Below are positions 21,963-61,151 of a DNA stretch of 64,000 bases, one piece after another. Each line of letters opens with the position of its first letter. Positions within the stretch are counted from its first letter, which is position 1. The notes under the pieces were generated by a model. The model was given only the letters and a program-made list of their open reading frames with translations. It searched no databases and had not been told where the DNA came from. The DNA is from Bacteroidota bacterium (GTDB lineage Bacteria > Bacteroidota > Bacteroidia > B-17B0 > Aurantibacillaceae): contig JAQZBQ010000001.1 in the NCBI GenBank assembly GCA_029237825.1, forward strand, positions 248,001-312,000, read 5' to 3'. The translations under genes and the position numbers were made by a program.

Positions 21963-24900
21963 CTATTGTTTTACAACTTTACCAACTTTAACTGTTTCAT
22001 TATTGTTGATGATTTTGAAGAAGTAAACACCGTCCTCTAATTTCAACAAACTGATAGTGTTAGCATCACTCGTCAAATTCTCTTTCAATGCTAACTTACC
22101 TAATCCATCATACACTTCAATGAAGGTAGAACCAGATAGGACAGATGAAACATTCACATTTAAAAGTCCATTTGTTGGATTCGGATAAATGTTAATGTCA
22201 GAAACTAATGCTGCCCCGCTAATGCCCATACAAATTTGAGCATCAACGAAAATTGTAGAAGTAGCATTACAAGTTCCATCATTAACTGTAACCGAATAGG
22301 TGGTTCCAACCGAAGGACTTACAGAAGTAGTCATTGTGTTAGCTCCATCAGACCAGGTGTAGGACGTGGCAGATGTTACAGCAGTTAAAACAGCGCTTTC
22401 GCCAAAGTTAGAGCACAATAACGTGTTCGACGCTGTAGCAGTAACGGTTGGTATCGTATTTACGCCAACTCCTACTGTTGCAGTATTTGAACAACCGTTA
22501 TCGGTACCGGTAACAGTGTATACAGAAGCGGATGAAGGAGTAACTACTTCAGTTGATGTATTTCCACCTGATGACCATGAGTAAGTAGTGGCACCGCCTG
22601 CGGTTAATGTAGCGGCTGACCCTGCACAAACACTCATACTTGAAGCACTTACGGTAACGGTTGGAAGTGGAGTTACGCTAACTGTAACCACGCCACTGTT
22701 TGAGCAGGAAGTAGCTGTGTTGGTAATAACTACAGAGTAATCCGTTGTAGAAGCAGGTGTTGCAGTAGTCGTAGAAGTATTAGATGTAAAACCCGTTGGT
22801 GTTGAAGTCCATGAATAGTCATATACACCCGTTGATAAACCATTAATCATAACATTATCAATTGCCCATCCATAACCATATGAACTGTTATAGTTAAATC
22901 GAACATACAATGTAGATTGATTAACATAGGAGTCAAGATTAAAAGATGCTAATGAGAATGTAGTAGGAGTTCCAATGTCAAGAGCCGTTGTTTTATAATT
23001 CTTTATAGAAGTCCAGGATGTACCATTCGTTGAAACCTCTACATGTGTAGAAACGTCACTTGAATAATAATTATAATAATGATAGAAACTTAAATTCAAT
23101 GAACTCATACCCATGGTATTTATAGCTGGCGACTGCAAAATAGTTGCGGTTGTGCCTCCACTGCCCTGTGCATCACTATCTGTCAGATAGAATTGAGAAG
23201 CATCATTACTTGTAATGTTTGTTCCAACATTTGACGAATAAGGACTGTTTCTTAATGTCCAAGCAGAGGCGGATGCCGTGCCACCAGTTGAATTATTAAT
23301 TTTAGTCCAACTATTAGTCGTTCCATTAAAACCTTCATTCAATAATACCACTGGTAGAGGATTTGCACCCGCTGTCAACGTAACTGTATTCCCAGCACAA
23401 ATCAGGGTAGGAGTTGCGCTAACCGTGATACTGGTTGGCGCGTTTTTAATGGAAATTGTTGTCGAAGCAACCGTTGAACAACCTGTAATAGAATTGGTCG
23501 CGCTAGCATTAATTGTTATCACACCCGGAGTTGTACTCTTCACATACACCGGATTAGAATTTGATCCCGCATAAGCTATTGTACCTGCCGCATCAGAGTA
23601 TAGGTTTGTCGTTGGATTCCAGATATACGTATCATAATCAGATACATTAGAAGTTACGCTGAATGTTCCAACCTCAGAACCAGCACAAATCGCCGCAGGA
23701 TTGTTTAATGTAAACACAGGAGGTGTAGTTACAGTTTGCGTAACCGACACTCTTGGACTTAAACAAACACCGTTAGTTGATTCTACATACCAAGTAGTTG
23801 TGGAATTTATAGATGTAGTATAAGTCGCACTTGAACCTGATTGTATCATTACAGTAGAAGTTGGAGAAGCATACCAGTTGTATGAAGTTCCTCCGGATAC
23901 GGAAGCGGTTGGCATACCAATACCACATTGTGTTCCGTCAGTTACAACTGGAGTAGATGGAATAGGATTAATAACTACACTTGTTGTAGCAGTATTGGAA
24001 CAGCCAGTTACTGTACTAGTAGCTGTTACCGTATAAACTTCTGTAATCGCTGCTGTCGTTGTATTTGTGGCTGTTGTGGTTACCATGTTTCCGGATAATG
24101 AACCTGGGTTCCATGTCCAGTTGTAATCAGACGATTGATCGAATTGAACATTAATCGTATAATCTTCCGCTTCACCTGAAGCAAAAGACGAACAAGCATC
24201 TCCTGAACCATTAGTATTTCCGCTTGATCTTGATCTTAAACGCATTTTAGTTAAACCTAAACTAGCAGATACAGGAACAGATACTGTAACAACTCCTGTT
24301 GTTCCAGTGGTGGATGGCTGAAGCCATTCGCTAGCACTAAATACGCCATCTCTGTTCCAGTCGAACCAAACTGAAGTAATAGCGGTAGAGTTAGTAGTAA
24401 GGTTTAATGAATATGTTTGACCAGGTGTTACATTCGTAGTTATCGTATTAGGCACATTCACATAAAACCCCGTTTCACAGGCGGATACGCGAGATAAGGT
24501 ATTGAAAGACACCATTGTAATGCACGCGGAACCGCTACTGGATGGTGTGCAATAACCTGTTGGAATGGTTTGTGGACCACCAATAACACTGTTCGCATTT
24601 AAAGTAAATGTTGAACCACTGCAAACTGCAGTAGGTGTCGCAGATGCATTTGCAATGCTTGGAACATCACCTACAGCAACTGTAACAGTTGAAATTGATG
24701 TACAAGGTCCATCTGTAGCAGTTAAACTATATGTATATATTCCAGCTGTTGTCGGTACAAAATTAACGGAAGTACCAAACATAGTTGTTGGCATACCGCT
24801 TCCTGGTGCAGGACTAGCATTCCACGAATAATTGTAAGCATTATTTGTACCCGATTGAACAGCTGTTAAAGTAACAGCTGGGGCAGAAGTTCCTAAACAT

Positions 24901-27900
24901 ACACTTGTAGCGGAAGAGGTAGCAGTAACTGGGTCGGGAATTGTAACACTTGCCGTAACAGAAGCGCGAGGACCATCACATACGCCGTTTGAAATAGCAA
25001 CATAGAATGTAGTTGTATTACTTATAGACGACGTATAAGTCTGAGACGTTCCTGACTGTAACAACGAACCGCCAGTTGATGCGGTGTACCAATTATATAC
25101 ACTTCCTCCGCTGACTGATGCAGAAGGAACGGCAAAGCCACATTGAGATGAATTTGCAGTTGTTGGCATCGCTGGCGTTGTTAACACATTAACTGTTATT
25201 GGTAGCCTTGAACTACTTGAACACACACCTGATTTTGACTCAGCAAAGAATGTATAAGTACCTGCCGTGTTAGTATTTGGTAAAAGAGTGGTTCCAACAG
25301 TTTCCAACGGCGTAACTGTAGATTGTAAAACACCCGCAGTTGGAGCATCCCACCAGTTTATTTGATGAGGCATTGCATACGTAAATACTAAACTTACGTT
25401 TCCAAAACTTGCAGCACCTGTCCAGCCATTTGTAAGCGTTAATGTTAAAACTCCGCCGGAAGAAGAAATATTCGGTGTATTTAAATTATAAGGCCCCGCA
25501 TTTGAAACAACAGCATTTACTGTTGATATCGTTGTGGCAGACATAGTAATCGCACCAGATAACGCTGCTTTAATATCATTAGGGTAAGTGGCCGAAGTAG
25601 TTGTTACGCCATTAAACACAAGCTTTGTAGATGAAATCACCGCGCCTGCAGGAACAGTAATTGTATTTGTTAACACAACACTTCCGCTTCCTGGCAAACT
25701 CACTGATGATCCTAACACTACTGATTGACTGGATACACTTTGTGCCGATGCCGTAATTGTAGCAGAACTAGCACCCTCGCAAACAGACACACTACTAATT
25801 GCTGTTGTTGGGGTTGGAGGCACATTGGTTTCAATTGTTACTGGAACACCACTTGTATTAGACCAACATGAGGTAGATGCATCATAAGCAGCTACATAGT
25901 ATGTTCCGGAAACTGTTACAGTGAACGGCGAAGAACCGCTAGATACAGTACTTGTTCCGGTAGAATTTGTGCCCTGCCAGTAGTAAGACACATTAACATC
26001 TGTTGAAGTTGGAACGCTCAACGTCGTGCTTATACAAGCAGGACTGGCACCAACAGAAGGTGTTGGAGGTAACGGTGCTACAGGGATATTTGAAACAACT
26101 ATAGAACTTGAATTTGTTGACCAAAGGTTGTTTGTTGAATTGTATGCTCTTACAAAATAAGTACCATTAACATTTACGGTATAATTGCCAGAAACAGGAA
26201 CTAATGTGCTTGTGCCGTTTGATACAGTTTGCCAATACCAGGCATCACCTGGGTCAGGAGTTCCTGTAACCATTAATTCAGTTCCGCTTGCACATGTTGG
26301 CGAAACGGTACTCTGTGTTGGAGCTGGAGGTGTTGCCGGTAAAGGAACAATGTTTACAATGTAGTCCTCTGTTTCACCGTAAGTTGTTGAGTTACATGCT
26401 CCTCCTACTGTATAAGCAGCATCTGATCCACCTCTCACGCGTAACCGCGTTAACCCAGATGTTGCACCGGCGGGCACGCTAAAAGAGTAATTTACAGTCG
26501 CACTTGCTCCTGCCGAAACAGACGATAATGCGATGTTTTCAGACGTTTCGTATACGCCATTTTGGTTGAAATCGATCCAAGCAGCGCTATGCTGAGTTCC
26601 ATCTGTTCCAAAAGTAATTGACAAGGTATTAGAAGTTGAGCCTTTTATTAAATTCAAAGGTGAATTATTGTATGAAACAAAGTAAGCAGGTGCTGTATAA
26701 GTCGAGGCTTGTGTTAAATTCTGACCTGCAGTGTTTGTCACAGAAATATTCGTGATAATATCACCTATTCCTCCGGTAGTAGGGTTAGTTACACAATAAC
26801 AATTTAATAAAGTATTCATATTAACTTGAATTGGAGTAGATATTGCTGTGGTCGCACTAGAAGTACATGTAACAATTGCCTGATAATATGTTGCCGTAGT
26901 TTGCGATACTACTGCATTTGCTAAAGTAGCAGATGGAATACTTGTCCAGGTCGTATTATCCGGTGAAGATTGCCATTGGTAACTTACACCAGAAGTCGAA
27001 TTACCCGACAATGTAAGTGTGAAATTAGACCCTGAACATACTGAAGAAGAACTTGCTGCAATGGTTCCAGCAATTACAGGAGTAACTGAAAAAGCTACCG
27101 CTGTAGTTGTAGCAGTCTGGGAACTGTTTGTACATGTTACAACAGCCTGATAGTATGTTGTAGATGATAGGCTTGGCGTTGTATAGGCTGTTGTAGTTGC
27201 AGAAGGAATACTCGAAAAAGTAACATTATCTGTCGAAGACTGCCATTGCACAGCTATCCCTAAATCTGAAGTTTGACCTGAGAGACTCAGAACTGTAGAT
27301 CCTGAACAAGTTGAGCTTGAATTTGATAAAGATATTGTTCCAGCAATTGGCGTTCCTGAACAAGCAGGAACTGGTGTTCCGTTAAAGGCATCTGCTCCAA
27401 TATCTGTTGGCGTTAAACCAGTACGCGACTGGCTGTCAAAATCATCTGTCACTGAAGCAATAAGGGTTCCGAATCCTTCAGCAAACGAAGGAATTGATGG
27501 ATTTATATGCAAATCAGGAACCGTAGCTGTAGGTGCAATGAAAGCAGGATCTGCACTATAAGAGGAATTGTCCTGACCGGTGGCTGTTGACCACGCGGAA
27601 AGAACCAGGCGATCAATACCATTATACAAACCTACCACTCCACCTGTTCCAGGCGCAAATAAAATATTACGATTTGATGTTAAGCCAGTAGGATTTACCG
27701 TTGTTCCACCAACTCTGATTGCATAATTTTTTCCGGTTGAACCATTATTGGAACGCGCGTTATAAAAAATATTGTTTTGATAAGATCTCGTATTTGTTGT
27801 AATCGAGCTTTGGAACGCAAAGGTGTTTGCTGAGCCCGTTGTAGGGGCACCACCTATATAAACGCTATTATGCCAAATATTATTTGTTCCTGCAGTTGTT

Positions 27901-29720
27901 TCATTTATTCCGTTAATCTGCATTCCAAGAGTAGAAGAAGACCCAGATACGCCCAAACGAATCATGTTATTTTTGTAGGTTGCTGTACCGCCTAAGATGT
28001 TAATTCCATTAATAACGGAAGCAACATTTGCCGCATTTAAACCATAAACCAGGTTTTTTTCAATTACATTCGATCCTGTTGAGGAACTAAATATAATTCC
28101 GCTTACATTAGAAGCTCCAGATAAACTGTTGCTAAGGTTATAGATTGTATTTGCTGTTACAGTATGATTTGCAGAGGTTGCGCTAATAACAATACCAGCA
28201 ACTGAAGCGGTAGATCCAGTTCCGGTTCCACCTGCGGCACTCATATTTCTAATAATATTGTTTGAAAATGTTCCAGATGGGTTACTATTTAAAATCCCAT
28301 TAACAATTGAACCTGAAGCCGTTGACGTATTGTCGATCGAATTTGTAACAGAACCTCCAATGACATTATTATTACATGCCCAGGTTACGCCTGAACCTGT
28401 ATTTGTTCTTAGACCGTAAAAGTTAGTAGCACCTGTGCTTGAATTTGATAATGTAAATCCGCCGATTTCATTATTGTTAGTTGTGAAGTTGCTACTGCCC
28501 CAATTTAAAATTCCAATAACATCAGCCGCAGAAGAAGAACTGGAAGAAAACATGATATTGCCTGATGATGAAAGACCTCCTATCGTGTTAGTATTACAGG
28601 CTAAAAGGCCAGCTGCAACATAGATGCCACGGAAACTTGCTGAACTACTCGTGCCGCTTAAGGTTCCTGTCATTACAATTTTATCAATTAAATTTCCTGA
28701 AGCATTTGATAAGGTAGTTGTACCTACGTTAAAGTGAATTGGTATGAAAACGGAGCTTGATGAAACGCCAGTGAAAGAATAAACCCCTGTTTGAGCAGAG
28801 GATGCATATCCAATAATGTTACCAGTCACTTGAAAATTATTTCCTGAAGTATTTGTAATCCAAATCGCAGAATGTTGTGTACCTGTTGTTTGAGTTTTAG
28901 GTCCGGTTTGATAAAAACGATTATTTGTAATATTAATATCAGTATTACCACCGGCAATATAAACGCCTGCACTTGATACGCCAGCACCAAAATAATCAAA
29001 TATGTAGTTATTCAAAATGGTGTTGCCGCTATTATTAATAGCCGTTGTGGATGTTGAACCATTCATATAAATTCCTTTTGTTGGAAAATTCGATCCTGCT
29101 GGCCCAATGTTGCAATAAGATATGACGTTATTATCATTTCCATTAGCTGTATTAGCATCCGTGCTAAAAAATATATTTCCACCATTTGTTCCGACCGCAG
29201 CACTAAAAGATCCAAACACAAAACAATTTGTTATTGTATTTGATGTAGCGCCGCCAATAAAACGAATGGTAGAAGTTCCACTTGTGCCAGATGCTGTTGT
29301 ATTTGAAATCGTTAAACTATTTCCACCTGAGTACAAGCCATCGATTAAGACGTTATCAGCCCCATTTAAATCAATTAGCGGCAAACCAGGAGCAATAGCG
29401 CCTGAAATGGTTCGTGCACCTCCGCCACTGGGAACAATAGTGATTTTTGAATAACTTGAACCTCCAACTCCACTTGCGAATAAAACCGCTGTGGCAGTCT
29501 CGGTTGTGCTGGCTGAAATATCTATTGAAATTATCCCCGAATGTGTTCCTGCGTTAATTGCTTCAAAAGATTCTTTCAGTGTTGTGTATGAGGCCGAAGC
29601 AGTTCCTCCAGAAGCAGTCACATCCACTTGAGCTCTCATTAATGTGGGCAAAAACATGCAAAAAATAGAAACAACTATAAGCCATTTGCTATTTTTCAAT
29701 TTAGTAAATCTAATATCCAT
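21963..29720 (-). CDS. Giant T9SS-secreted adhesin: beta-helix, Ig-like, GEVED and MAM-like domains
   Basis: 2585 residues from the ATG at 29720; an upstream in-frame codon at 29747 would bury the signal peptide. Layout: signal peptide ending near MRAQ; right-handed parallel beta-helix, residues about 50-785, rich in N/T/S (INITNNRFY, ITNTSGNNFQVTGN); two Ig-like units with WQSSTDN and WQSSPDN (about 790-960); GEVED domain 1 (about 970-1125, WIDFNQNGVYE, GETEDYIVNI); several PKD/Ig-like units; GEVED domain 2 (about 1720-1860, WFDWNRDGVF, GEAEDYTINV); a MAM-like or choice-of-anchor-J domain (about 2125-2295, LSFYHYYNYYSSDV, GWAIDNVMI); more PKD-like units; and a T9SS type A sorting tail from about 2507 (INIYPNPTNGLLNV). 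It is exported by Sec, crosses the outer membrane by T9SS, and is held at or shed from the surface; an adhesion role is inferred. The composition is strongly Ser/Thr-rich. Confidence 0.88.
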   Translation of the reverse strand: MDIRFTKLKNSKWLIVVSIFCMFLPTLMRAQVDVTASGGTASASYTTLKESFEAINAGTHSGIISIDISASTTETATAVLFASGVGGSSYSKITIVPSGGGARTISGAIAPGLPLIDLNGADNVLIDGLYSGGNSLTISNTTASGTSGTSTIRFIGGATSNTITNCFVFGSFSAAVGTNGGNIFFSTDANTANGNDNNVISYCNIGPAGSNFPTKGIYMNGSTSTTAINNSGNTILNNYIFDYFGAGVSSAGVYIAGGNTDINITNNRFYQTGPKTQTTGTQHSAIWITNTSGNNFQVTGNIIGYASSAQTGVYSFTGVSSSSVFIPIHFNVGTTTLSNASGNLIDKIVMTGTLSGTSSSASFRGIYVAAGLLACNTNTIGGLSSSGNIMFSSSSSSAADVIGILNWGSSNFTTNNNEIGGFTLSNSSTGATNFYGLRTNTGSGVTWACNNNVIGGSVTNSIDNTSTASGSIVNGILNSNPSGTFSNNIIRNMSAAGGTGTGSTASVAGIVISATSANHTVTANTIYNLSNSLSGASNVSGIIFSSSTGSNVIEKNLVYGLNAANVASVINGINILGGTATYKNNMIRLGVSGSSSTLGMQINGINETTAGTNNIWHNSVYIGGAPTTGSANTFAFQSSITTNTRSYQNNIFYNARSNNGSTGKNYAIRVGGTTVNPTGLTSNRNILFAPGTGGVVGLYNGIDRLVLSAWSTATGQDNSSYSADPAFIAPTATVPDLHINPSIPSFAEGFGTLIASVTDDFDSQSRTGLTPTDIGADAFNGTPVPACSGTPIAGTISLSNSSSTCSGSTVLSLSGQTSDLGIAVQWQSSTDNVTFSSIPSATTTAYTTPSLSSTTYYQAVVTCTNSSQTATTTAVAFSVTPVIAGTIAASSSSVCSGSNFTLTLSGNSTSGVSYQWQSSPDNTTWTSIPSATLANAVVSQTTATYYQAIVTCTSSATTAISTPIQVNMNTLLNCYCVTNPTTGGIGDIITNISVTNTAGQNLTQASTYTAPAYFVSYNNSPLNLIKGSTSNTLSITFGTDGTQHSAAWIDFNQNGVYETSENIALSSVSAGASATVNYSFSVPAGATSGLTRLRVRGGSDAAYTVGGACNSTTYGETEDYIVNIVPLPATPPAPTQSTVSPTCASGTELMVTGTPDPGDAWYWQTVSNGTSTLVPVSGNYTVNVNGTYFVRAYNSTNNLWSTNSSSIVVSNIPVAPLPPTPSVGASPACISTTLSVPTSTDVNVSYYWQGTNSTGTSTVSSGSSPFTVTVSGTYYVAAYDASTSCWSNTSGVPVTIETNVPPTPTTAISSVSVCEGASSATITASAQSVSSQSVVLGSSVSLPGSGSVVLTNTITVPAGAVISSTKLVFNGVTTTSATYPNDIKAALSGAITMSATTISTVNAVVSNAGPYNLNTPNISSSGGVLTLTLTNGWTGAASFGNVSLVFTYAMPHQINWWDAPTAGVLQSTVTPLETVGTTLLPNTNTAGTYTFFAESKSGVCSSSSRLPITVNVLTTPAMPTTANSSQCGFAVPSASVSGGSVYNWYTASTGGSLLQSGTSQTYTSSISNTTTFYVAISNGVCDGPRASVTASVTIPDPVTATSSATSVCLGTSAPAVTLTAVQSGTNNAYNYSWNASPAPGSGMPTTMFGTSVNFVPTTAGIYTYSLTATDGPCTSISTVTVAVGDVPSIANASATPTAVCSGSTFTLNANSVIGGPQTIPTGYCTPSSSGSACITMVSFNTLSRVSACETGFYVNVPNTITTNVTPGQTYSLNLTTNSTAITSVWFDWNRDGVFSASEWLQPSTTGTTGVVTVSVPVSASLGLTKMRLRSRSSGNTNGSGDACSSFASGEAEDYTINVQFDQSSDYNWTWNPGSLSGNMVTTTATNTTTAAITEVYTVTATSTVTGCSNTATTSVVINPIPSTPVVTDGTQCGIGMPTASVSGGTSYNWYASPTSTVMIQSGSSATYTTSINSTTTWYVESTNGVCLSPRVSVTQTVTTPPVFTLNNPAAICAGSEVGTFSVTSNVSDYDTYIWNPTTNLYSDAAGTIAYAGSNSNPVYVKSTTPGVITINASATNSITGCSTVASTTISIKNAPTSITVSATPTLICAGNTVTLTAGANPLPVVLLNEGFNGTTNSWTKINNSTGGTASASAWTLRNSPYSSNVGTNITSNDASQFYLTDSDAQGSGGTTATILQSPAINTMGMSSLNLSFYHYYNYYSSDVSTHVEVSTNGTSWTSIKNYKTTALDIGTPTTFSLASFNLDSYVNQSTLYVRFNYNSSYGYGWAIDNVMINGLSTGVYDYSWTSTPTGFTSNTSTTTATPASTTDYSVVITNTATSCSNSGVVTVSVTPLPTVTVSASSMSVCAGSAATLTAGGATTYSWSSGGNTSTEVVTPSSASVYTVTGTDNGCSNTATVGVGVNTIPTVTATASNTLLCSNFGESAVLTAVTSATSYTWSDGANTMTTSVSPSVGTTYSVTVNDGTCNATSTIFVDAQICMGISGAALVSDINIYPNPTNGLLNVNVSSVLSGSTFIEVYDGLGKLALKENLTSDANTISLLKLEDGVYFFKIINNNETVKVGKVVKQ

Positions 29721-29868
29721 TATTTTGAGTTTTAATTTATCCGCCAAATGTAGACATTAATGCAAAACCAACCTTACACATTTGTAATAAAAGTGACGGA
29801 TTTTAATAACATATCAGGTGATAAAATGAAACGGATTTTTTGCTAAAACTATTTAGTACTTTTATTTC

Positions 29869-54463: not shown

Positions 54464-55708
54464 ATGAGTTTGCAGGTAAATGTAAAAGATTTGTTATCAA
54501 ATCTATACCACAATCGTGGTGTGGTGGAATTGCTATTTGGACAGCGCGACCAGATTACTGTGAACGAATTATTGGGTCGCGATGATATTTCGGAAGAACA
54601 ATACCGCAAACTGGTTTCATTGGATATTCTTTATGAGTATGAAAATGTAGTGAGTCTAAACGATGCCGTAGTGGCTATGTTCGAAGATTTCATGGAAATC
54701 GGGGAAGTTACTCCGGGCTTTATCAATGACTACATCAATGAATTAAAACGCTATATAAAATTCTACCAGGAAGCACGCGAAATGCGCTTTCTTCGGAGTA
54801 TCAAAAAATACCTGAAACGTATTAATTCTACGCTCACACGGGAAATCATAAAACTTCAGAAGAATGTTGATGATACCTACAAAAACGAAAGTAACTACCG
54901 GATAAAATTACAAAAGCTGGAGGACTATCGTGAAAAACGTGATACAATTATCGAGTTTATAAAGCAAACAAATGCTATTGTTGATGAAACAAGAGTTTTG
55001 TTTAATATCACTAACGATACTGAACTATTCGGAATTGTTGCATCCCTAAAGATAAGTCTGATCGAAAACCTGGATTTTTTGATCGAAATTCAAACCGACA
55101 TCACCGACTTTATCAATAAAATTCAATTCCAGCTTGATGTTTATAAAAAAGCACAGCGCTTGAAGGAGGTAAAAGATCATGGAACCTTGCACTTTAAAAC
55201 GAACTTCCGGGAAATTGTTTCCCATATTAACACCTTAAAGCACAACGGGCATAAAACTCCTAAAACCAAAATTCCCATCGATTTTCTATACAGCGATGAA
55301 GGGCATGTTTTGTGCAAGCGAATTGCTGAGAAATATAAAATCACACGCTTAATGGTGCGCGGCCTTGCTGATAAAATGGCAGGCAATTTTAAAGACAAAG
55401 GATTAGAACAGCAAATTAAACTCGATACAGAGAAACTTGTTGAACGTTTTTTGACTCAAACCAAACAAAATTTATTTGAGTATTTAATGGACTATAAATT
55501 TCCAAAAGCTATTGGTTCAGTAGGCTTTGAAGAACGCCTTTCTTTATTTGTGGAAATTGCAATGGAATACCAGAACCAACTGGATTTTAAGTACCGTTTA
55601 CAATATCACGATTATATTGATAATACCACGAATACCAAGAAACGTTTGGGTTATACACTTATTCTGCCTTTAAAAGAAAAAGCTAAAAAAGAAAAAGTAA
55701 CGAAATAA
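54464..55708 (+). CDS. MksF/JetA-like kleisin subunit of a condensin
   Basis: 414 residues from the ATG at 54464 (MSLQVNVKDLLSNLYHNRG); an in-frame GTG at 54443 is less likely. Residues about 1-80 look like a winged-helix domain (NRGVVELLFGQ, LLGRDDISEEQYRKLVSLDIL). The middle (about 85-300) is long alpha-helices and coiled coil (KFYQEAREMRFLRSIKKYL, KLQKNVDDTYKNE). The C-terminal part is again compact. This order, and the neighbours MksE and a MukB-like ATPase, fit the kleisin of an MksBEF/Wadjet-type condensin, which bridges the ATPase heads. Similarity to named kleisins was judged by architecture and context, not by alignment. A possible -7 box TATTTTTA is at 54434-54441. Confidence 0.7.
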   Translation: MSLQVNVKDLLSNLYHNRGVVELLFGQRDQITVNELLGRDDISEEQYRKLVSLDILYEYENVVSLNDAVVAMFEDFMEIGEVTPGFINDYINELKRYIKFYQEAREMRFLRSIKKYLKRINSTLTREIIKLQKNVDDTYKNESNYRIKLQKLEDYREKRDTIIEFIKQTNAIVDETRVLFNITNDTELFGIVASLKISLIENLDFLIEIQTDITDFINKIQFQLDVYKKAQRLKEVKDHGTLHFKTNFREIVSHINTLKHNGHKTPKTKIPIDFLYSDEGHVLCKRIAEKYKITRLMVRGLADKMAGNFKDKGLEQQIKLDTEKLVERFLTQTKQNLFEYLMDYKFPKAIGSVGFEERLSLFVEIAMEYQNQLDFKYRLQYHDYIDNTTNTKKRLGYTLILPLKEKAKKEKVTK

Positions 55709-55752
55709 ATATACATTATTCACTGCTGTTGCAGTGACTCACGAGAAAGACC

Positions 55753-56358
55753 ATGGAAGAAAATAGTTTTAATTTACCGAAGCAAACACACGATATTTTT
55801 GCCGTTATGGCAAGAGGCGCCTTTATTTCCAGTAATGGCAGCAGAGACGGAATGAACCGCCTTTATGACATCATTAATAACCCGGAAAATTTTGATCGTT
55901 TGCAGGCATATTTTAATGTGATTCGCTATAACATTGAGCGGGGAAACAATTTTTTTTATTTTTCGAAGTTGAGTGAACCAAATTCTGAACTGGAAAAAAA
56001 ACTTGAACGTTTTGAACGTTATATTGACATCATTGATTTGTTTGCCAGTATGGATAATAAGATCGGGATTGGAAGCCGTTTCCGTCCAAGTGAAATAGCC
56101 GAAGAATGTAATGCAAATGTACGCTTAAAGCAAAAACTTCAAAAAATTCCTTTGTATCGCTCAGAAACACTCCATAATAAAGTACGCGAAATTTGTGATC
56201 TGATGAGCCGCGATTCATTTCTCGAACTGGAAGATGAAAAATCGGAATCATATAAAGTGTTAGACTCTTACAACTACCTCTTGGATGTAATAAACTCGGT
56301 TGCTATTTATGAAGATAGCGGGGCGGGAGATGATACCCAGGGAATTATTTATAATTAA
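55753..56358 (+). CDS. MksE/JetB-like condensin subunit
   Basis: 201 residues, no signal. Tandem small winged-helix-like units: IFAVMARGAFISSNGSRD at the N-terminus, the hallmark-like YNIERGNNFFYFSKLSE, then IGSRFRPSEIAEECN, and a final helical segment. The size and order match MksE/MukE, which bind the kleisin and DNA and regulate loading. It starts 44 bases after the kleisin gene. The ATPase gene is not next but follows after a different gene (56369-57364). Family call rests on context and short motifs. Confidence 0.7.
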   Translation: MEENSFNLPKQTHDIFAVMARGAFISSNGSRDGMNRLYDIINNPENFDRLQAYFNVIRYNIERGNNFFYFSKLSEPNSELEKKLERFERYIDIIDLFASMDNKIGIGSRFRPSEIAEECNANVRLKQKLQKIPLYRSETLHNKVREICDLMSRDSFLELEDEKSESYKVLDSYNYLLDVINSVAIYEDSGAGDDTQGIIYN

Positions 56359-56368
56359 TACATTGAAG

Positions 56369-57364
56369 ATGAAACATTACGTATTAGGCTTATTAATTGC
56401 AATCAACGTCAATTGTATTGCCCAAGCAAAATATTCAAGCATGCCGGATGATTTCGTTTCCTTTCACGAAAGCATTTCTGCTGCAGAGCGTATGTTTAAA
56501 AATGATTCCGTCTTACAGGCTTACGCCAAATTTGATAATGCTTTTGCAAACTATAAAGGACAAATAAATCCTGGCCACTATTATCGGGCAGCCCTTTGCG
56601 CTATTAAAATTCGGGAAGAATATAAAGCCTTACATTTCCTTGAAAAGGCTATTATAAACGGATATGAAGTTGACAGCGCTAAGAAAAATGAAATCACCTT
56701 TTATAATCAGAATACAAAAAAAGAATACCTGGATAATGTTTCCAAATGGGAACAGGAAAGGGACGCTGCTAAAAATCTGACTTGGCAGGAAGACCTCATT
56801 AAAAACGCATCGACCAAAAACAAATCTGCTGAAGCAAAATATAAAGAAGCGGTAACGTACTGTATAAATTGCATGAAATCAAAAACCTGCAGTAAAACAG
56901 CCCCGGAATATGTATCACGTTACCGTACCATTAAAGAACGAATGAAATCGGATTCAATCGCTGCAGTTGCCCTGCTTGCTGGCATTCAACAAAATGGTTT
57001 CCCTTCTTCAAAAAAAGTTGGTAAAAAAGCCAATGAAGTTGCCCGCAACATTTTACTTTCATACGATGCAGATAAAAAAAATGAACGCCTCGATAATGTA
57101 TTGATGAAGGCCCTGCAGGATGGTCATATCTCGCCTGCATTTTATGCGAGCCTGATAGATCGGAGAAACGTATTGAATGGCTTGAGCCCTGAATTTTATG
57201 AACCAGTTACAGGTTATGAAAAAACGATTGGAAAAGAACTAACCGTTGTTAATAAAAAGCGCAGTTCCATTGGCTTATATCCAATCCGTTTACAGAGCTC
57301 CGCTGCTCCTAAAACAAAAGATGCGGCGATGAATAAAAAGACGACACAGTTATACGACTATTAA
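56369..57364 (+). CDS. Exported TPR-like protein with DUF6624-like C-terminus
   Basis: 331 residues from the ATG at 56369 (MKHYVLGLLIAINVNCIAQ), a signal peptide, so the protein is predicted outside the cytoplasm. Residues about 30-115 are helical repeats of a TPR kind (YYRAALCAIKIREEYKALHF, LEKAIINGYEVDS). The C-terminal region (VLMKALQDGHISPAFYASLI, DRRNVLNG, VVNKKRSSIGLYP) recalls DUF6624, a domain common in Bacteroidota. It begins 10 bases after mksE and lies within the condensin operon, 100 bases before the SMC gene, all on one strand. Its role with a cytoplasmic condensin is not explained. Function unknown. Confidence 0.7.
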   Translation: MKHYVLGLLIAINVNCIAQAKYSSMPDDFVSFHESISAAERMFKNDSVLQAYAKFDNAFANYKGQINPGHYYRAALCAIKIREEYKALHFLEKAIINGYEVDSAKKNEITFYNQNTKKEYLDNVSKWEQERDAAKNLTWQEDLIKNASTKNKSAEAKYKEAVTYCINCMKSKTCSKTAPEYVSRYRTIKERMKSDSIAAVALLAGIQQNGFPSSKKVGKKANEVARNILLSYDADKKNERLDNVLMKALQDGHISPAFYASLIDRRNVLNGLSPEFYEPVTGYEKTIGKELTVVNKKRSSIGLYPIRLQSSAAPKTKDAAMNKKTTQLYDY

Positions 57365-57424
57365 TAAGGGAAATTATACTTTACCATCAAAAAAAAGAAT
57401 AAAACACATAAACAGAATCTGCGA

Positions 57425-57442
57425 TCCTGATAGCTATCGGGA
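57425..57442. repeat. Palindrome in the gap before the SMC gene
   Basis: TCCTGATAGCTATCGGGA is symmetric apart from one T/G position, centred on ATAGCTAT. It sits in the 100-base gap between the DUF6624-like gene and the SMC gene. It resembles short dispersed palindromes; no second copy is in this window. Confidence 0.4.
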
Positions 57443-57464
57443 CTAGGGGAATAAAAAAATAGAA

Positions 57465-60400
57465 ATGGAAAATAATTGCAGAATATTAAATAGAATTGTT
57501 CAGATAAATATTGCGAACGTAAAATATACGGATCTTGAACTTAGTGGAAATACATGTTTTGTTGGGACCAATAACTTTGGTAAAACGTCGTTACAACGGG
57601 CAATTTTATTTTTTTACAGTGCTAATACACGTGGGTTAGGGATTTCAGCTTCTCAAAAACCATTTGAAGAACATTATTTTAAATTTGAAAACTCCTACCT
57701 CATTTACGAAATTCAAACTGAGAACAAACCGTTTTTTGTCATTGTTTACCGTCATAATAAACTCGTTTTCCGATTTGTTGACGCAGAATACAATCCGGAT
57801 TTCTTTTTCAACGAAAACGATGAAGCCATAAAGATTAAGGAAGTTATTTCTGGATTAGATAAGCGTGGCATCTATGTTTCTCAACAAATTGATACGTTTG
57901 AACGCTATAGAAATATATTGTACGGAACCGAAACCGACAAACAACTTTCTAAATTCCACATCCTTAAAGGGAATGAGAAATACCAGAATATCCCGAAATC
58001 GATCACCAATGTATTTTTAAGTTCAAAAAGCAGTATCGATAGCCGCTTCATTAAAGACTTCATAGCCAACTCGCTAACCTCTGAAAGCAGTAGTATTAAG
58101 CTCGAACAAGTAGAGCGACAGTTGCGCCAATTCAATGAAAAATATTCCGATATTGAAACTTACCTCAAGAAAGAATCCCAGCAATTAATTGAGCTGATTG
58201 ACAAGAAGTATGACCAGGTACACATGTTAAAAGGCGCGCAAATGGAAATGGCTGATAAATTGGGGAGCAGCTTACGTTATGCCGAAACTCAGAACGAAGC
58301 GGTAATTAAAGCGTCTCATGAAAAACAGGAAGAAATTGACCGTTTAACAGAAGCCAACGAAGAGCAAAAGACATACCTGGAAGAAAAGCAAAAGGACATA
58401 CGTGAAGAAATTGGTTATTATGACCGGACGATTCGTGAAGCAAATAAGAAACTGAAAGAATACAAGGAAAAAAATATTGACCAAGCTGTTGAAAAAAACG
58501 CAGAACGCGAAAAACTGCAGGTAGATTATAACATTGCGCGCCGCGAATACGAATCATTAACTTCAAACGTGCAAAGTATTGAGATGAAGTATTCTTCGTT
58601 GATTGAGCAGTTACGTAATGATAAAACAGCCTACATAAATAAAATTAATTCCCGTACTAGTGAAATCTTCAACCACTATAACGAATTACAATTGCTGCAG
58701 AAGAATGAATTCAATAAAAAAGACGCAGAATTCAAACAAAAAAGAGAAGAAGCTTTAACGGAATTAAATGCTGAAGTAACTGCCAAACAGATTGAGTTCA
58801 ACGAATTAAAGGCTGAAGAAAAGGTTATTCGCAATACCCGTTTTTATGAGGCTGAGATAAAAGCACAAGAAACCGAGCTTGCCGATCTTCGTGCTATAAA
58901 TTATAAAAACAAATCAGAACTGGCAATCAAGACTAATTTAGTTCAAAGCAACCAGAAAGAATGGGAGGCTTTAGAATCAAAGTTAAAAACGTCACTTTCG
59001 AACCAGATCCAGAAAACCAATAACGAAATTATCCGTGTAAAGACGGAAATTAAAACCATTGAGGAAAAATTAAATGTTCAGCACGATGCGTTATATGGTT
59101 ATCTGGAAAAGAACGTAAAGGACTGGCATACCACAATTGGGAAAGTAGTAAATGAAGATTTATTATTCCGTACCGATTTAAATCCAACGCTTACGGATGA
59201 AAAAGGATTATCATTATATGGCATTAATTTAAAACTCGACGATGTTCAGGTTGTTTCAAAAACCATTGAGGAATATCAGTTTGAAAAAAATGAGCGCTTA
59301 GCTATGATTCGTGATCTGGAGGAATCCATGAATCAGTTTCAGGCGGCGAACAATGAAGAAAAAATGCTGGCCGCAGATAAATACGGAAAGCAATTAGGGG
59401 AACTTAAAGAAGACCTTAAAGTATTAACGTATTCTTTGGAACTGGCGGATAAGCGTGAGAAAAAACTCATTCTTGAACTGGAGGATTGGAAGCAACGTGC
59501 CAGCACAGAAATTGAACAGTCTTTGTCGGGAAATCGTCAGAAATTAAACATTATTGAAGAAGAGTTGGCTATTTTAAATAAAAAGAAAAATAACCTTTTG
59601 AATGACTTCAATACACAGTTTGATAAATTAAAAGCATTTAACGACGAACGTTTAGCAGATTTAAAATCAAGACAGGAAACTGAAATTTCTGAACTTGAAG
59701 TAGAAAAGAAAAATCAGGTAAAGGAATACGAAGAAAAAGAAGCACAGTTAAGCAATGAAAAGGAAACCAATTTCAAGGCGAAAGGTGTAGACAGTAAGGA
59801 GATTAAAAAGATTGATGCCCGTATTAAAGAATTACAGGAAGCTTTGAAGGAAATCGATCAGTATTCGCAAATAGTAAGTGATTATTTGAAAGATAAACGA
59901 GAAATCTTTGATAAACTTCCTGACCTGATTCAGAAAAAAGAGGAATACGTAAAATCTGCCAATGATTTAACTGCAGAGATCGAAGAGATCGCAAGAAAGT
60001 TTAACATCAAACGCATGGAACTTAATAAACAAAAGCGTGCGTTTGAAGAAGAACTCATCGAGTTTAATAATGGTATAAATTATTTCACCAAAAACTTCCG
60101 TGAAACACCCGTTTTTAATAAATATGCGGATATCATTGACAGAGCTGAGCCGAAGAAGACGAATTACAGTGTAATGGATCTGTGTACTCAGCTCCTGAAA
60201 AATGATTCTCATTTTAATGAAGAGTATACGGCGTTTCAACGCTATGTAAATGAGTTTGCCGGTAAATTCAGGTTAGAAAACCATTTTAACTTCGTAATCA
60301 GGAATGATGCGACCCAGGGAGAATATGAACGCTTTGCGCAAAACCTGCGCTCATTTATTAATGAAGCCAAAATTGAACTCTCCATTGCTGAAACTGCGAC

Positions 60401-61151
60401 ACAAATCGGATTGGTAACAGACAGTATTGCCACAAAAGTGAGAGAATTAAGCGGACAAAAAGACAAGATTCAGCATATCATCACATTGATTGCAGAAGAT
60501 TTTAAGAAAGCCGAGTTCGAAGAATCTAAATTGATTGAATTCATTAAAATCCGTTTAGAAGATTCTGATAATAAAGTTTACAAATTGCTGAAGCGCATAC
60601 AGGAGTTCCGCGAAGAGAATGGATTGGTATACAATGAAGGATTATTTAACACCGATTTTGCAACGCACAAGAACAGGGAAATCAGTAACCGCGCTGTTAA
60701 ATTGCTGGATCAATTGAGAACTGCTATTAAAGAACAGGAACAGGAAGAGATTCGTTTACAGGACTTATTTGAGTTGAAATTTAATATTAAAGAAGGCTTA
60801 AATGAAACCGGCTGGACTCATAAAATTGACAGTATCGGAAGTACCGGAACGGATATCCTTGTAAAGGCAATTATTTACATTACATTGTTGCATGTATTTA
60901 TTAAGGAGTCATCGCATCGCGGAAGTACTGAGTTTAAAGTGCATTGCATCATTGATGAAGTAGGTCAGATTTCGGCACACTACCTTCGTGAATTATTGCG
61001 TTTTGCCAAAAACCGGAATATTATGATGATCAATGGTTTGCCAAACAAATCGGGATTAGAGGCCCACTATAAGTACACGTACCAGTTCAGAAGGGAAGAA
61101 AACAATAACGTAAGAATTTTCCCAAGTATTGTAACTGAAATTGAAGCGTAA
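57465..61151 (+). CDS. MksB/JetC-like SMC ATPase of a condensin
   Basis: 1228 residues with SMC layout: an N-terminal head, two long coiled coils (about 230-540 and 610-940) around a globular middle segment (about 545-605, WHTTIGKVVNEDLLFRTDLN ... SLYGINL) that would be the hinge, and a C-terminal head. Walker A is GTNNFGKT at 34-41; Walker B is CIIDEVGQ with the acidic pair near 1164-1165; the signature segment is GSTGTD near 1125-1130, as in MukB-like rather than classic SMC proteins. It would compact or extrude DNA in an ATP-driven complex with the kleisin at 54464 and the MksE-like subunit. The Wadjet relatives use the same trio plus a JetD nuclease, which is absent here. Function in immunity versus chromosome organisation cannot be told from sequence. 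Confidence 0.8.
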   Translation: MENNCRILNRIVQINIANVKYTDLELSGNTCFVGTNNFGKTSLQRAILFFYSANTRGLGISASQKPFEEHYFKFENSYLIYEIQTENKPFFVIVYRHNKLVFRFVDAEYNPDFFFNENDEAIKIKEVISGLDKRGIYVSQQIDTFERYRNILYGTETDKQLSKFHILKGNEKYQNIPKSITNVFLSSKSSIDSRFIKDFIANSLTSESSSIKLEQVERQLRQFNEKYSDIETYLKKESQQLIELIDKKYDQVHMLKGAQMEMADKLGSSLRYAETQNEAVIKASHEKQEEIDRLTEANEEQKTYLEEKQKDIREEIGYYDRTIREANKKLKEYKEKNIDQAVEKNAEREKLQVDYNIARREYESLTSNVQSIEMKYSSLIEQLRNDKTAYINKINSRTSEIFNHYNELQLLQKNEFNKKDAEFKQKREEALTELNAEVTAKQIEFNELKAEEKVIRNTRFYEAEIKAQETELADLRAINYKNKSELAIKTNLVQSNQKEWEALESKLKTSLSNQIQKTNNEIIRVKTEIKTIEEKLNVQHDALYGYLEKNVKDWHTTIGKVVNEDLLFRTDLNPTLTDEKGLSLYGINLKLDDVQVVSKTIEEYQFEKNERLAMIRDLEESMNQFQAANNEEKMLAADKYGKQLGELKEDLKVLTYSLELADKREKKLILELEDWKQRASTEIEQSLSGNRQKLNIIEEELAILNKKKNNLLNDFNTQFDKLKAFNDERLADLKSRQETEISELEVEKKNQVKEYEEKEAQLSNEKETNFKAKGVDSKEIKKIDARIKELQEALKEIDQYSQIVSDYLKDKREIFDKLPDLIQKKEEYVKSANDLTAEIEEIARKFNIKRMELNKQKRAFEEELIEFNNGINYFTKNFRETPVFNKYADIIDRAEPKKTNYSVMDLCTQLLKNDSHFNEEYTAFQRYVNEFAGKFRLENHFNFVIRNDATQGEYERFAQNLRSFINEAKIELSIAETATQIGLVTDSIATKVRELSGQKDKIQHIITLIAEDFKKAEFEESKLIEFIKIRLEDSDNKVYKLLKRIQEFREENGLVYNEGLFNTDFATHKNREISNRAVKLLDQLRTAIKEQEQEEIRLQDLFELKFNIKEGLNETGWTHKIDSIGSTGTDILVKAIIYITLLHVFIKESSHRGSTEFKVHCIIDEVGQISAHYLRELLRFAKNRNIMMINGLPNKSGLEAHYKYTYQFRREENNNVRIFPSIVTEIEA

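Follow-up and report, generated by a model that had tools for sequence, protein, structure and literature searches.

The stretch of DNA analyzed here (hereafter the window) comprises 64,000 nucleotides of the genome of a bacterium from the Bacteroidota family Aurantibacillaceae (class Bacteroidia; assembly GCA_029237825.1, contig JAQZBQ010000001.1, positions 248,001 to 312,000), and at positions 54464-61151 it carries four co-directional genes on the plus strand, encoding proteins of 414, 201, 331 and 1228 amino acids (aa). Three of these proteins are the kleisin, KITE and SMC subunits of an MksBEF complex without an associated nuclease, which probably acts as the resident chromosomal condensin of this family. 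Genomes, loci and families of our collection are cited below by their G, L and f numbers where they need to be told apart.

Identity of the subunits and organization of the locus

A first-pass annotation of the window had proposed a kleisin-like, an MksE-like and a 1228-residue SMC gene in that order, and the corresponding open reading frames (ORFs) are present and co-directional, giving the F-E-B arrangement; that gene list had overlooked an additional ORF separating mksE from mksB (Table 1). The ATPase motifs reported for the SMC were likewise recovered where they had been placed (GTNNFGKT at residues 34-41, GSTGTD at 1125-1130 and CIIDEVGQ at 1161-1168). MksB matched PF12128 (DUF3584) over nearly its full length in the Pfam search (residues 23-1195, E-value 1.2e-63), and its motifs are intact, being invariant save for F38 of Walker A in an alignment of the window sequence with 24 others (25 in all), taken from the 73 related loci described below. 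A repair SMC of the RecN or Rad50 type was discarded, as DUF3584 was the best SMC match and no RecN or Rad50 model appeared up to an E-value of 10. Up to the same value, no SMC_prok_B, ScpA or ScpB model was found among the Pfam and NCBIfam matches of the four operon proteins. Searches of solved structures with the MksB sequence and with MksB, MksE and MksF profiles retrieved no SMC-complex chain, and the sole match of the MksE profile (7.5e-9, about 40 residues) was a chain named like a designed protein.

The 201-aa protein matched PF21980 (MksE) with an E-value of 2.1e-30 and 106.7 bits (cut-off 27). Since PF21980 also matches E. coli and the KITE genes of Wadjet operons, it indicates the type of subunit and not its function. 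Among 296 genomes sampled across the phylum, 33 of the 43 PF21980 matches fell within family f33, from another class, and the one locus of this family that was read (L137) is a complete Wadjet operon whose genes include DUF3322 and JetD_C; the MksE Pfam model does not separate condensins from Wadjet.

The 414-aa protein had no above-cut-off match in Pfam, NCBIfam or PADLOC. Its structure prediction (mean pLDDT 77, pTM 0.41) combines a winged-helix pattern at the N terminus with long helices and a C-terminal domain, and the top five Foldseek matches of this model all came from MukF, MukEF or MukBEF entries, led by the chain 9gm7_C (E-value 3.4e-4; no other at or below 0.001); the identity of these chains as MukF was deduced from chain lengths and titles. 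In the VIA-align comparison the MukF-type rows reached Z scores of 12.7-13.7 with large rmsd and tied with unrelated helical bundles (the top one, a syntaxin, at 13.8); several also cover the N-terminal winged helix, and Wadjet-II JetABC chains appeared in the same list at 11.0-11.3. Besides, the window kleisin is homologous to the kleisins of nuclease-bearing relatives. Considering the predicted fold and the gene position, we take the 414-aa protein as the putative MksF kleisin. Profile comparison therefore bore out two of the three subunits named by the first-pass annotation, the MksE and the MukB-like SMC, and the kleisin was placed by predicted fold and gene position instead; neither of the two smaller subunits matched an unrelated family.

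Table 1. Position of the MksBEF genes and of the MksB ATPase motifs in the window.
Feature	Position	Strand	Remarks
mksF-like kleisin	54464..55708	+	414 aa from ATG; predicted fold and gene position
mksE, KITE subunit	55753..56358	+	201 aa; PF21980
331-aa ORF, apparently secreted product	56369..57364	+	between mksE and mksB
mksB, MukB-like SMC ATPase	57465..61151	+	1228 aa; PF12128 (DUF3584)
Walker A, GTNNFGKTS, MksB residues 34-42	57564..57590	+	translation
ABC signature, SIGSTGTD, MksB residues 1123-1130	60831..60854	+	translation
Walker B with catalytic glutamate, HCIIDEVGQ, MksB residues 1160-1168	60942..60968	+	translation

The kleisin ORF begins at an upstream GTG (54443) in the automatic ORF list. 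The product of the 331-aa ORF looks secreted from its sequence and had weak matches to NF047558 (TPR end-of-group, NCBIfam, E-value 0.006, below cut-off) and to the PADLOC model PDC-M07A (0.0039). This ORF was detected in 15 of the 73 related loci, with a protein identity of 52-75% in the eight of ten chosen loci that hold it. A role as a fourth subunit was rejected, since close relatives with MksB 93-96% identical (L036 and L041) have no copy between mksE and mksB, and the ORF is most likely a passenger. A terminator scan found no plus-strand site between the genes, and its totals did not exceed those of shuffled sequences. The flanking genes, which we take to be bshC and psd following the names of the first-pass annotation, lie on the opposite strand to the trio and, as that annotation stated, hold no JetD. 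Elsewhere in the window (21963-29747) lies a gene whose 2594-aa product looks secreted and seems to bear a type IX secretion sorting domain at its C terminus.

Distribution and conservation of the complex in the family

The operon is no chance occurrence, with relatives of MksB in at least 73 loci of our collection. When 296 genomes were sampled evenly across the class, all 14 members of the family of the window had the family-type MksB. Of 61 family genomes, 52 gave an MksE match, which scored above 300 bits in 50 and was a fragment or an interrupted copy in G586 and G578; among the 46 genomes with a completeness of 90% or more and a contamination of 5% or less, the count was 44. The MksBEF genes of G578 (L168) are broken into many short frames, perhaps by sequencing errors or decay. 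The genome of the window itself has one MksB match and one MksE match.

The trio is also strongly conserved, with protein identities of 84-100% across ten chosen loci compared to 51-64% for bshC in the nine of them that hold this gene. In the same loci, dN ranged from 0.02 to 0.12 for the trio and from 0.29 to 0.44 for bshC; most ratios of the dN/dS type were not computable, given the full or nearly full saturation of synonymous sites. A readable F-E-B trio was found in 53 of the 73 loci, many of the others being cut by contig ends, and in these 53 trios the gap between mksE and mksB varied from 13 to 3352 bases and that between mksF and mksE from 6 to 1368. Other DNA separates the subunit genes in several loci, and in G536 about 93 kb of a single contig lies between mksB and mksE; the trio does not form a tight cassette. 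The commonest neighbouring gene occurs in 21 of 42 family-type loci, and its member in L009 is a glycosyltransferase.

Near-exclusion between MksBEF and Smc-ScpAB

Profile searches detected neither ScpA, ScpB nor an Smc above cut-off in 25 family genomes. Within the 41 genomes of relatives, all three were found in the same three (G025, G038 and G040), none of which belongs to the family. The Smc model touched all 41 genomes at E-values up to 0.001, with no match above cut-off outside those three, and the best match below cut-off (1.4e-14, G039) covers a coiled-coil stretch. Apart from the nuclease-bearing second operons of the same SMC family described below, no other SMC-type condensin was found in the family. 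Bacteroides ihuae, whose genome served as a control, had no MksE, ScpA or ScpB match.

In the class sample, ScpB was above cut-off in 74 of 296 genomes and either the long MksB type of the window or a second, shorter type in 60. The two systems co-occurred in only one of the 74 genomes with ScpB, whereas MksB was present in 59 of the 222 genomes without it (Fisher p 1.7e-7, a value that overstates the evidence because the genomes are related). Before this count, the ScpB match of G392 was dropped as below cut-off, together with eight cross-hits of the short profile to the long type and one cross-hit of the long profile (G467). The sole genome with both systems is G224, and its MksB operon (L135) bears a JetD-like gene. 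Since ScpB was found in 248 of the 296 genomes of the phylum sample, 218 of these from other classes, we infer that Smc-ScpAB was lost within the class. The long type was rejected as a class-wide condensin, as it occurs in 8 of 282 sampled class genomes outside the family; a ninth match, in G467, was not counted, as the long profile cross-matched the short type there.

The SMC of the short type has about 880-910 aa and is accompanied by its own kleisin and MksE (PF21980 1.8e-20 in L138). A profile built from four such SMCs gave strong matches in 39 of the 296 class genomes, two of them partial (G437 and G530), distributed as 14 genomes in f11, 12 in f69, four in f74, three in f4, three in f9 (weaker) and one each in f85, f95 and f15; these are numbers of genomes with a match and not shares of each family. 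Gene order is mostly SMC-kleisin-KITE. The f9 loci (L153 and L154) show kleisin-KITE-SMC, the KITE being confirmed in L154 alone, and no KITE ORF was seen in L151. Neither gene position nor either of two JetD-like profiles revealed a JetD-like gene in 19 short-type loci (L128, L138, L139, L147-L158, L160 and L162-L164). Such a gene lies between the SMC and kleisin genes in two others, L135 (f15) and L161 (f69), with DUF7281 matches of 0.0011 and 3.2e-5, respectively, both below cut-off, and 38% identity to each other. One genome, G472, holds three MksBEF operons: a nuclease-free short one (L160), a nuclease-bearing short one (L161) and a nuclease-bearing long one (L118).

Nuclease genes and nuclease-bearing relatives

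The whole-genome search for JetD suggested by the first-pass annotation was negative in the genome of the window for both JetD_C (PF09983) and DUF7281 (PF23947), with incomplete sensitivity, as the same DUF7281 search missed the gene of G593, whose JetD-like protein (L159) is above cut-off when scanned directly. DUF7281 was above cut-off in two of 61 family genomes (G004 and G424), and the two JetD-like profiles had no match among 1513 ORFs of 84 family-type loci.

Outside the clade formed by the family itself, the long-type relatives have a JetD-like gene of about 285-300 aa directly after mksB. It was present in eight of nine such operons from genome loci (L118, L119, L121, L122, L123/L124, L125, L126 and L127 from other families, and L120 from the family genome G424), L119 being the one without it. 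DUF7281 was above cut-off in L118, L120, L121, L124, L126 and L127 and below it in L125, and the gene of L122, cut by a contig end, was found by the local profile alone (3.7e-42). Inside the family there are three nuclease-bearing second operons (L146, L159 and L120); in G004, G424 and G593 the JetD-like gene belongs to the second operon, and each of these genomes has the housekeeping MksE at another place. The SMC of the G424 second operon (L120) is split into two frames. Altogether, the nuclease-bearing relatives are patchy extra operons. The nuclease-bearing operons of f69 and f1 (L118, L120, L159 and L161) are preceded by genes for 299-aa regulators with similar N termini, a WYL domain being shown for that of L159. 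An RNase H-like exonuclease gene follows the JetD-like gene of L159, and L120 has a similar gene judging from its N terminus.

In a tree of 48 SMC heads, the MksB proteins of the family formed one clade (100/99) and the remaining long-type proteins another (98/99). The nearly identical nuclease-bearing SMCs of L118 (f69) and L159 (f1) point to a recent transfer between these families, and the nuclease-free f4 proteins group with the nuclease-bearing L161 (100/100). On a tree of 32 SMCs, the presence and absence of the JetD-like gene required five changes, of which the starred branches force at least four. This 32-row tree includes records from a plasmid collection, and since the base of the long type is poorly resolved and long branches were flagged, it fits both a family that lost a nuclease and one that never had it. 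The local profile found the JetD-like gene in Phocaeicola massiliensis (L175 and L177) and Persicobacter (L174 and L176), with DUF7281 below cut-off in L177, L174 and L176 and without a match in L175; it found none in Persicobacter L178 and L181 or in Parabacteroides distasonis L173. Two Persicobacter species carry a nuclease-free long-type MksBEF on one large plasmid (L178, L181) and a nuclease-bearing one on another (L174, L176). The plasmid-labelled Bacteroidales records, from Parabacteroides distasonis (L173) and Bacteroides finegoldii TSDC17.2 (L180), carry gcvT or secA and may be pieces of chromosome.

Discussion

The assignment of the operon as the probable housekeeping condensin of this Bacteroidota family is based on its near-universal presence and slow evolution, the single MksE and MksB matches in the genome of the window, the lack of detectable Smc-ScpAB, the negative nuclease searches and the separation of mksB and mksE by some 93 kb in G536. 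By analogy with MukBEF and Wadjet (PMC10512200, PMC10586767), two MksB subunits would form a pair of ATP-driven arms in a V shape, MksF would bridge both ATPase heads, and MksE dimers would bind MksF and DNA. The ring may then load onto DNA, entrap it and extrude loops through ATP cycles, which would compact and individualize the replicated chromosome and so contribute to its segregation. With no JetD-type nuclease attached, a complex stalled on a small circle would be expected not to cut it.

The first-pass annotation had offered two possibilities, a housekeeping condensin and an anti-plasmid system whose effector lies elsewhere; the evidence favors the former, and the latter fits the relatives instead. 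A Wadjet-type or other defence system, with its nuclease encoded elsewhere in the genome or with some unrecognized protein in that role, would agree with the predominance of four-gene operons bearing a JetD-like gene among the long-type relatives outside the family's own clade (8/9), some of them behind a WYL-type regulator. The searches also leave some room for a nuclease elsewhere in the genome of the window, since, among the long-type JetD-like proteins scanned, L146 alone reaches the PF09983 cut-off, and only just, JetD_C matches being weaker than those of DUF7281, and since the PF23947 search missed G593. Moreover, the PADLOC matches of MksB to AriA (5.7e-8) and LmuB (1.2e-6) were better than its match to JetC (0.062), and such matches, expected from shared ATPase and coil features, keep a link to defence in view. 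Nevertheless, a trio that is near-universal and slow-evolving differs from the nuclease-bearing operons, which are patchy and include a nearly identical pair in different families (L118 and L159); none of the 84 family-type loci holds a JetD-like gene; and the genome of the window has a single MksE and a single MksB match. Its spread, the constraint on it and the negative nuclease searches set the anti-plasmid system aside as a first choice, and we consider a defence role for the operon quite unlikely.

MksBEF acts as an auxiliary chromosome organizer beside SMC in Pseudomonas aeruginosa, and the complex of the window might do the same if its main condensin were another protein, common to the 163 class genomes that have neither ScpB nor either MksB type. 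Most class genomes without ScpB lack a recognized condensin (163/222), so the absence of Smc-ScpAB alone does not call for MksBEF, and another condensin could also be present in this family. In addition, a Hi-C study describes a weak arm-alignment signal in a Bacteroides without detectable condensin (PMC10197239). Retention across the family and very strong constraint, however, exceed what would be expected of an auxiliary system, and neither Smc nor a short-type MksB was found in the family, where the searches gave two weak matches (G017, 1.9e-6; G021, 2.3e-6) and the short-type profile one cross-match (G424), though a very divergent protein would escape them. An auxiliary role is thus improbable. 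Two further points count against a resident condensin: MksE was not found in nine of the 61 family genomes, of which seven are less than 90% complete and two are not (G009, 95%; G572, 92%), and the structure model of the window MksE was poor (pLDDT 41).

Comparison with described systems places the operon closest to the nuclease-free reference, MksBEF of Pseudomonas aeruginosa, with which it shares the SMC, kleisin and KITE subunits, the F-E-B order, the MksE Pfam family and the absence of a nuclease. A review describes MksBEF as widely distributed and often found beside MukBEF, SMC-ScpAB or other MksBEF (PMC4255302); the complex of this family is near-universal and stands without a detectable Smc-ScpAB. 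Wadjet (JetABCD, or MksBEFG) has three homologous subunits, and most long-type relatives carry a JetD-like gene with DUF7281 or JetD_C similarity, but no such gene was found with the type of the window, its distribution is not patchy and its PADLOC Jet matches are weak (JetB 0.017, JetC 0.062). The MukF-like kleisin fold and the MukB-like SMC are shared with MukBEF of Enterobacteria, as may be the replacement of Smc-ScpAB in a lineage, although no match to solved MukB, MukF or MukE chains was found at the sequence level and the two form separate lineages. The role presumed for the complex is that of Smc-ScpAB, whose ScpA, ScpB and above-cut-off Smc were not found in the 25 family genomes. As for Lamassu (LmuB) and PARIS (AriA), the window MksB shows weak ATPase or coil similarity to them, whereas its full-length match is DUF3584. 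To our knowledge, neither of these two systems is built on a kleisin and an MksE-type KITE.

Nuclease-free MksBEF was already known. As far as our literature searches show, what is new is a family in which MksBEF is near-universal and the sole detectable condensin, together with its near-exclusion with Smc-ScpAB in the class; no Bacteroidota MksBEF condensin was found in the literature searched, and a description in subscription papers, including the original MksBEF paper, is possible. As a broader and more tentative proposal, to which we give somewhat less than even chances, the class may have dropped Smc-ScpAB over much of its tree and refilled the role more than once with nuclease-free Wadjet-like SMCs, the long type in one family and the type of about 880-910 aa in f4, f9, f11, f69, f74, f85 and f95, so that the same gene family would shift between plasmid defence, with a JetD-like nuclease, and condensation, without it.

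The 2023 Hi-C study found none of the known condensins in the two Bacteroidetes that it covered and concludes that Bacteroides use unidentified SMC complexes (PMC10197239). Our results bear on related families and not on Bacteroides itself; they show how such complexes look in those families, and we propose nuclease-free MksBEF complexes as the likely condensins in several families of this phylum. Besides, the sister operons with and without a nuclease gene provide test material for the shift of an SMC motor between defence and housekeeping. If the broader proposal is true, these families would represent a replicated natural experiment for the idea that MukBEF descends from a defence complex.

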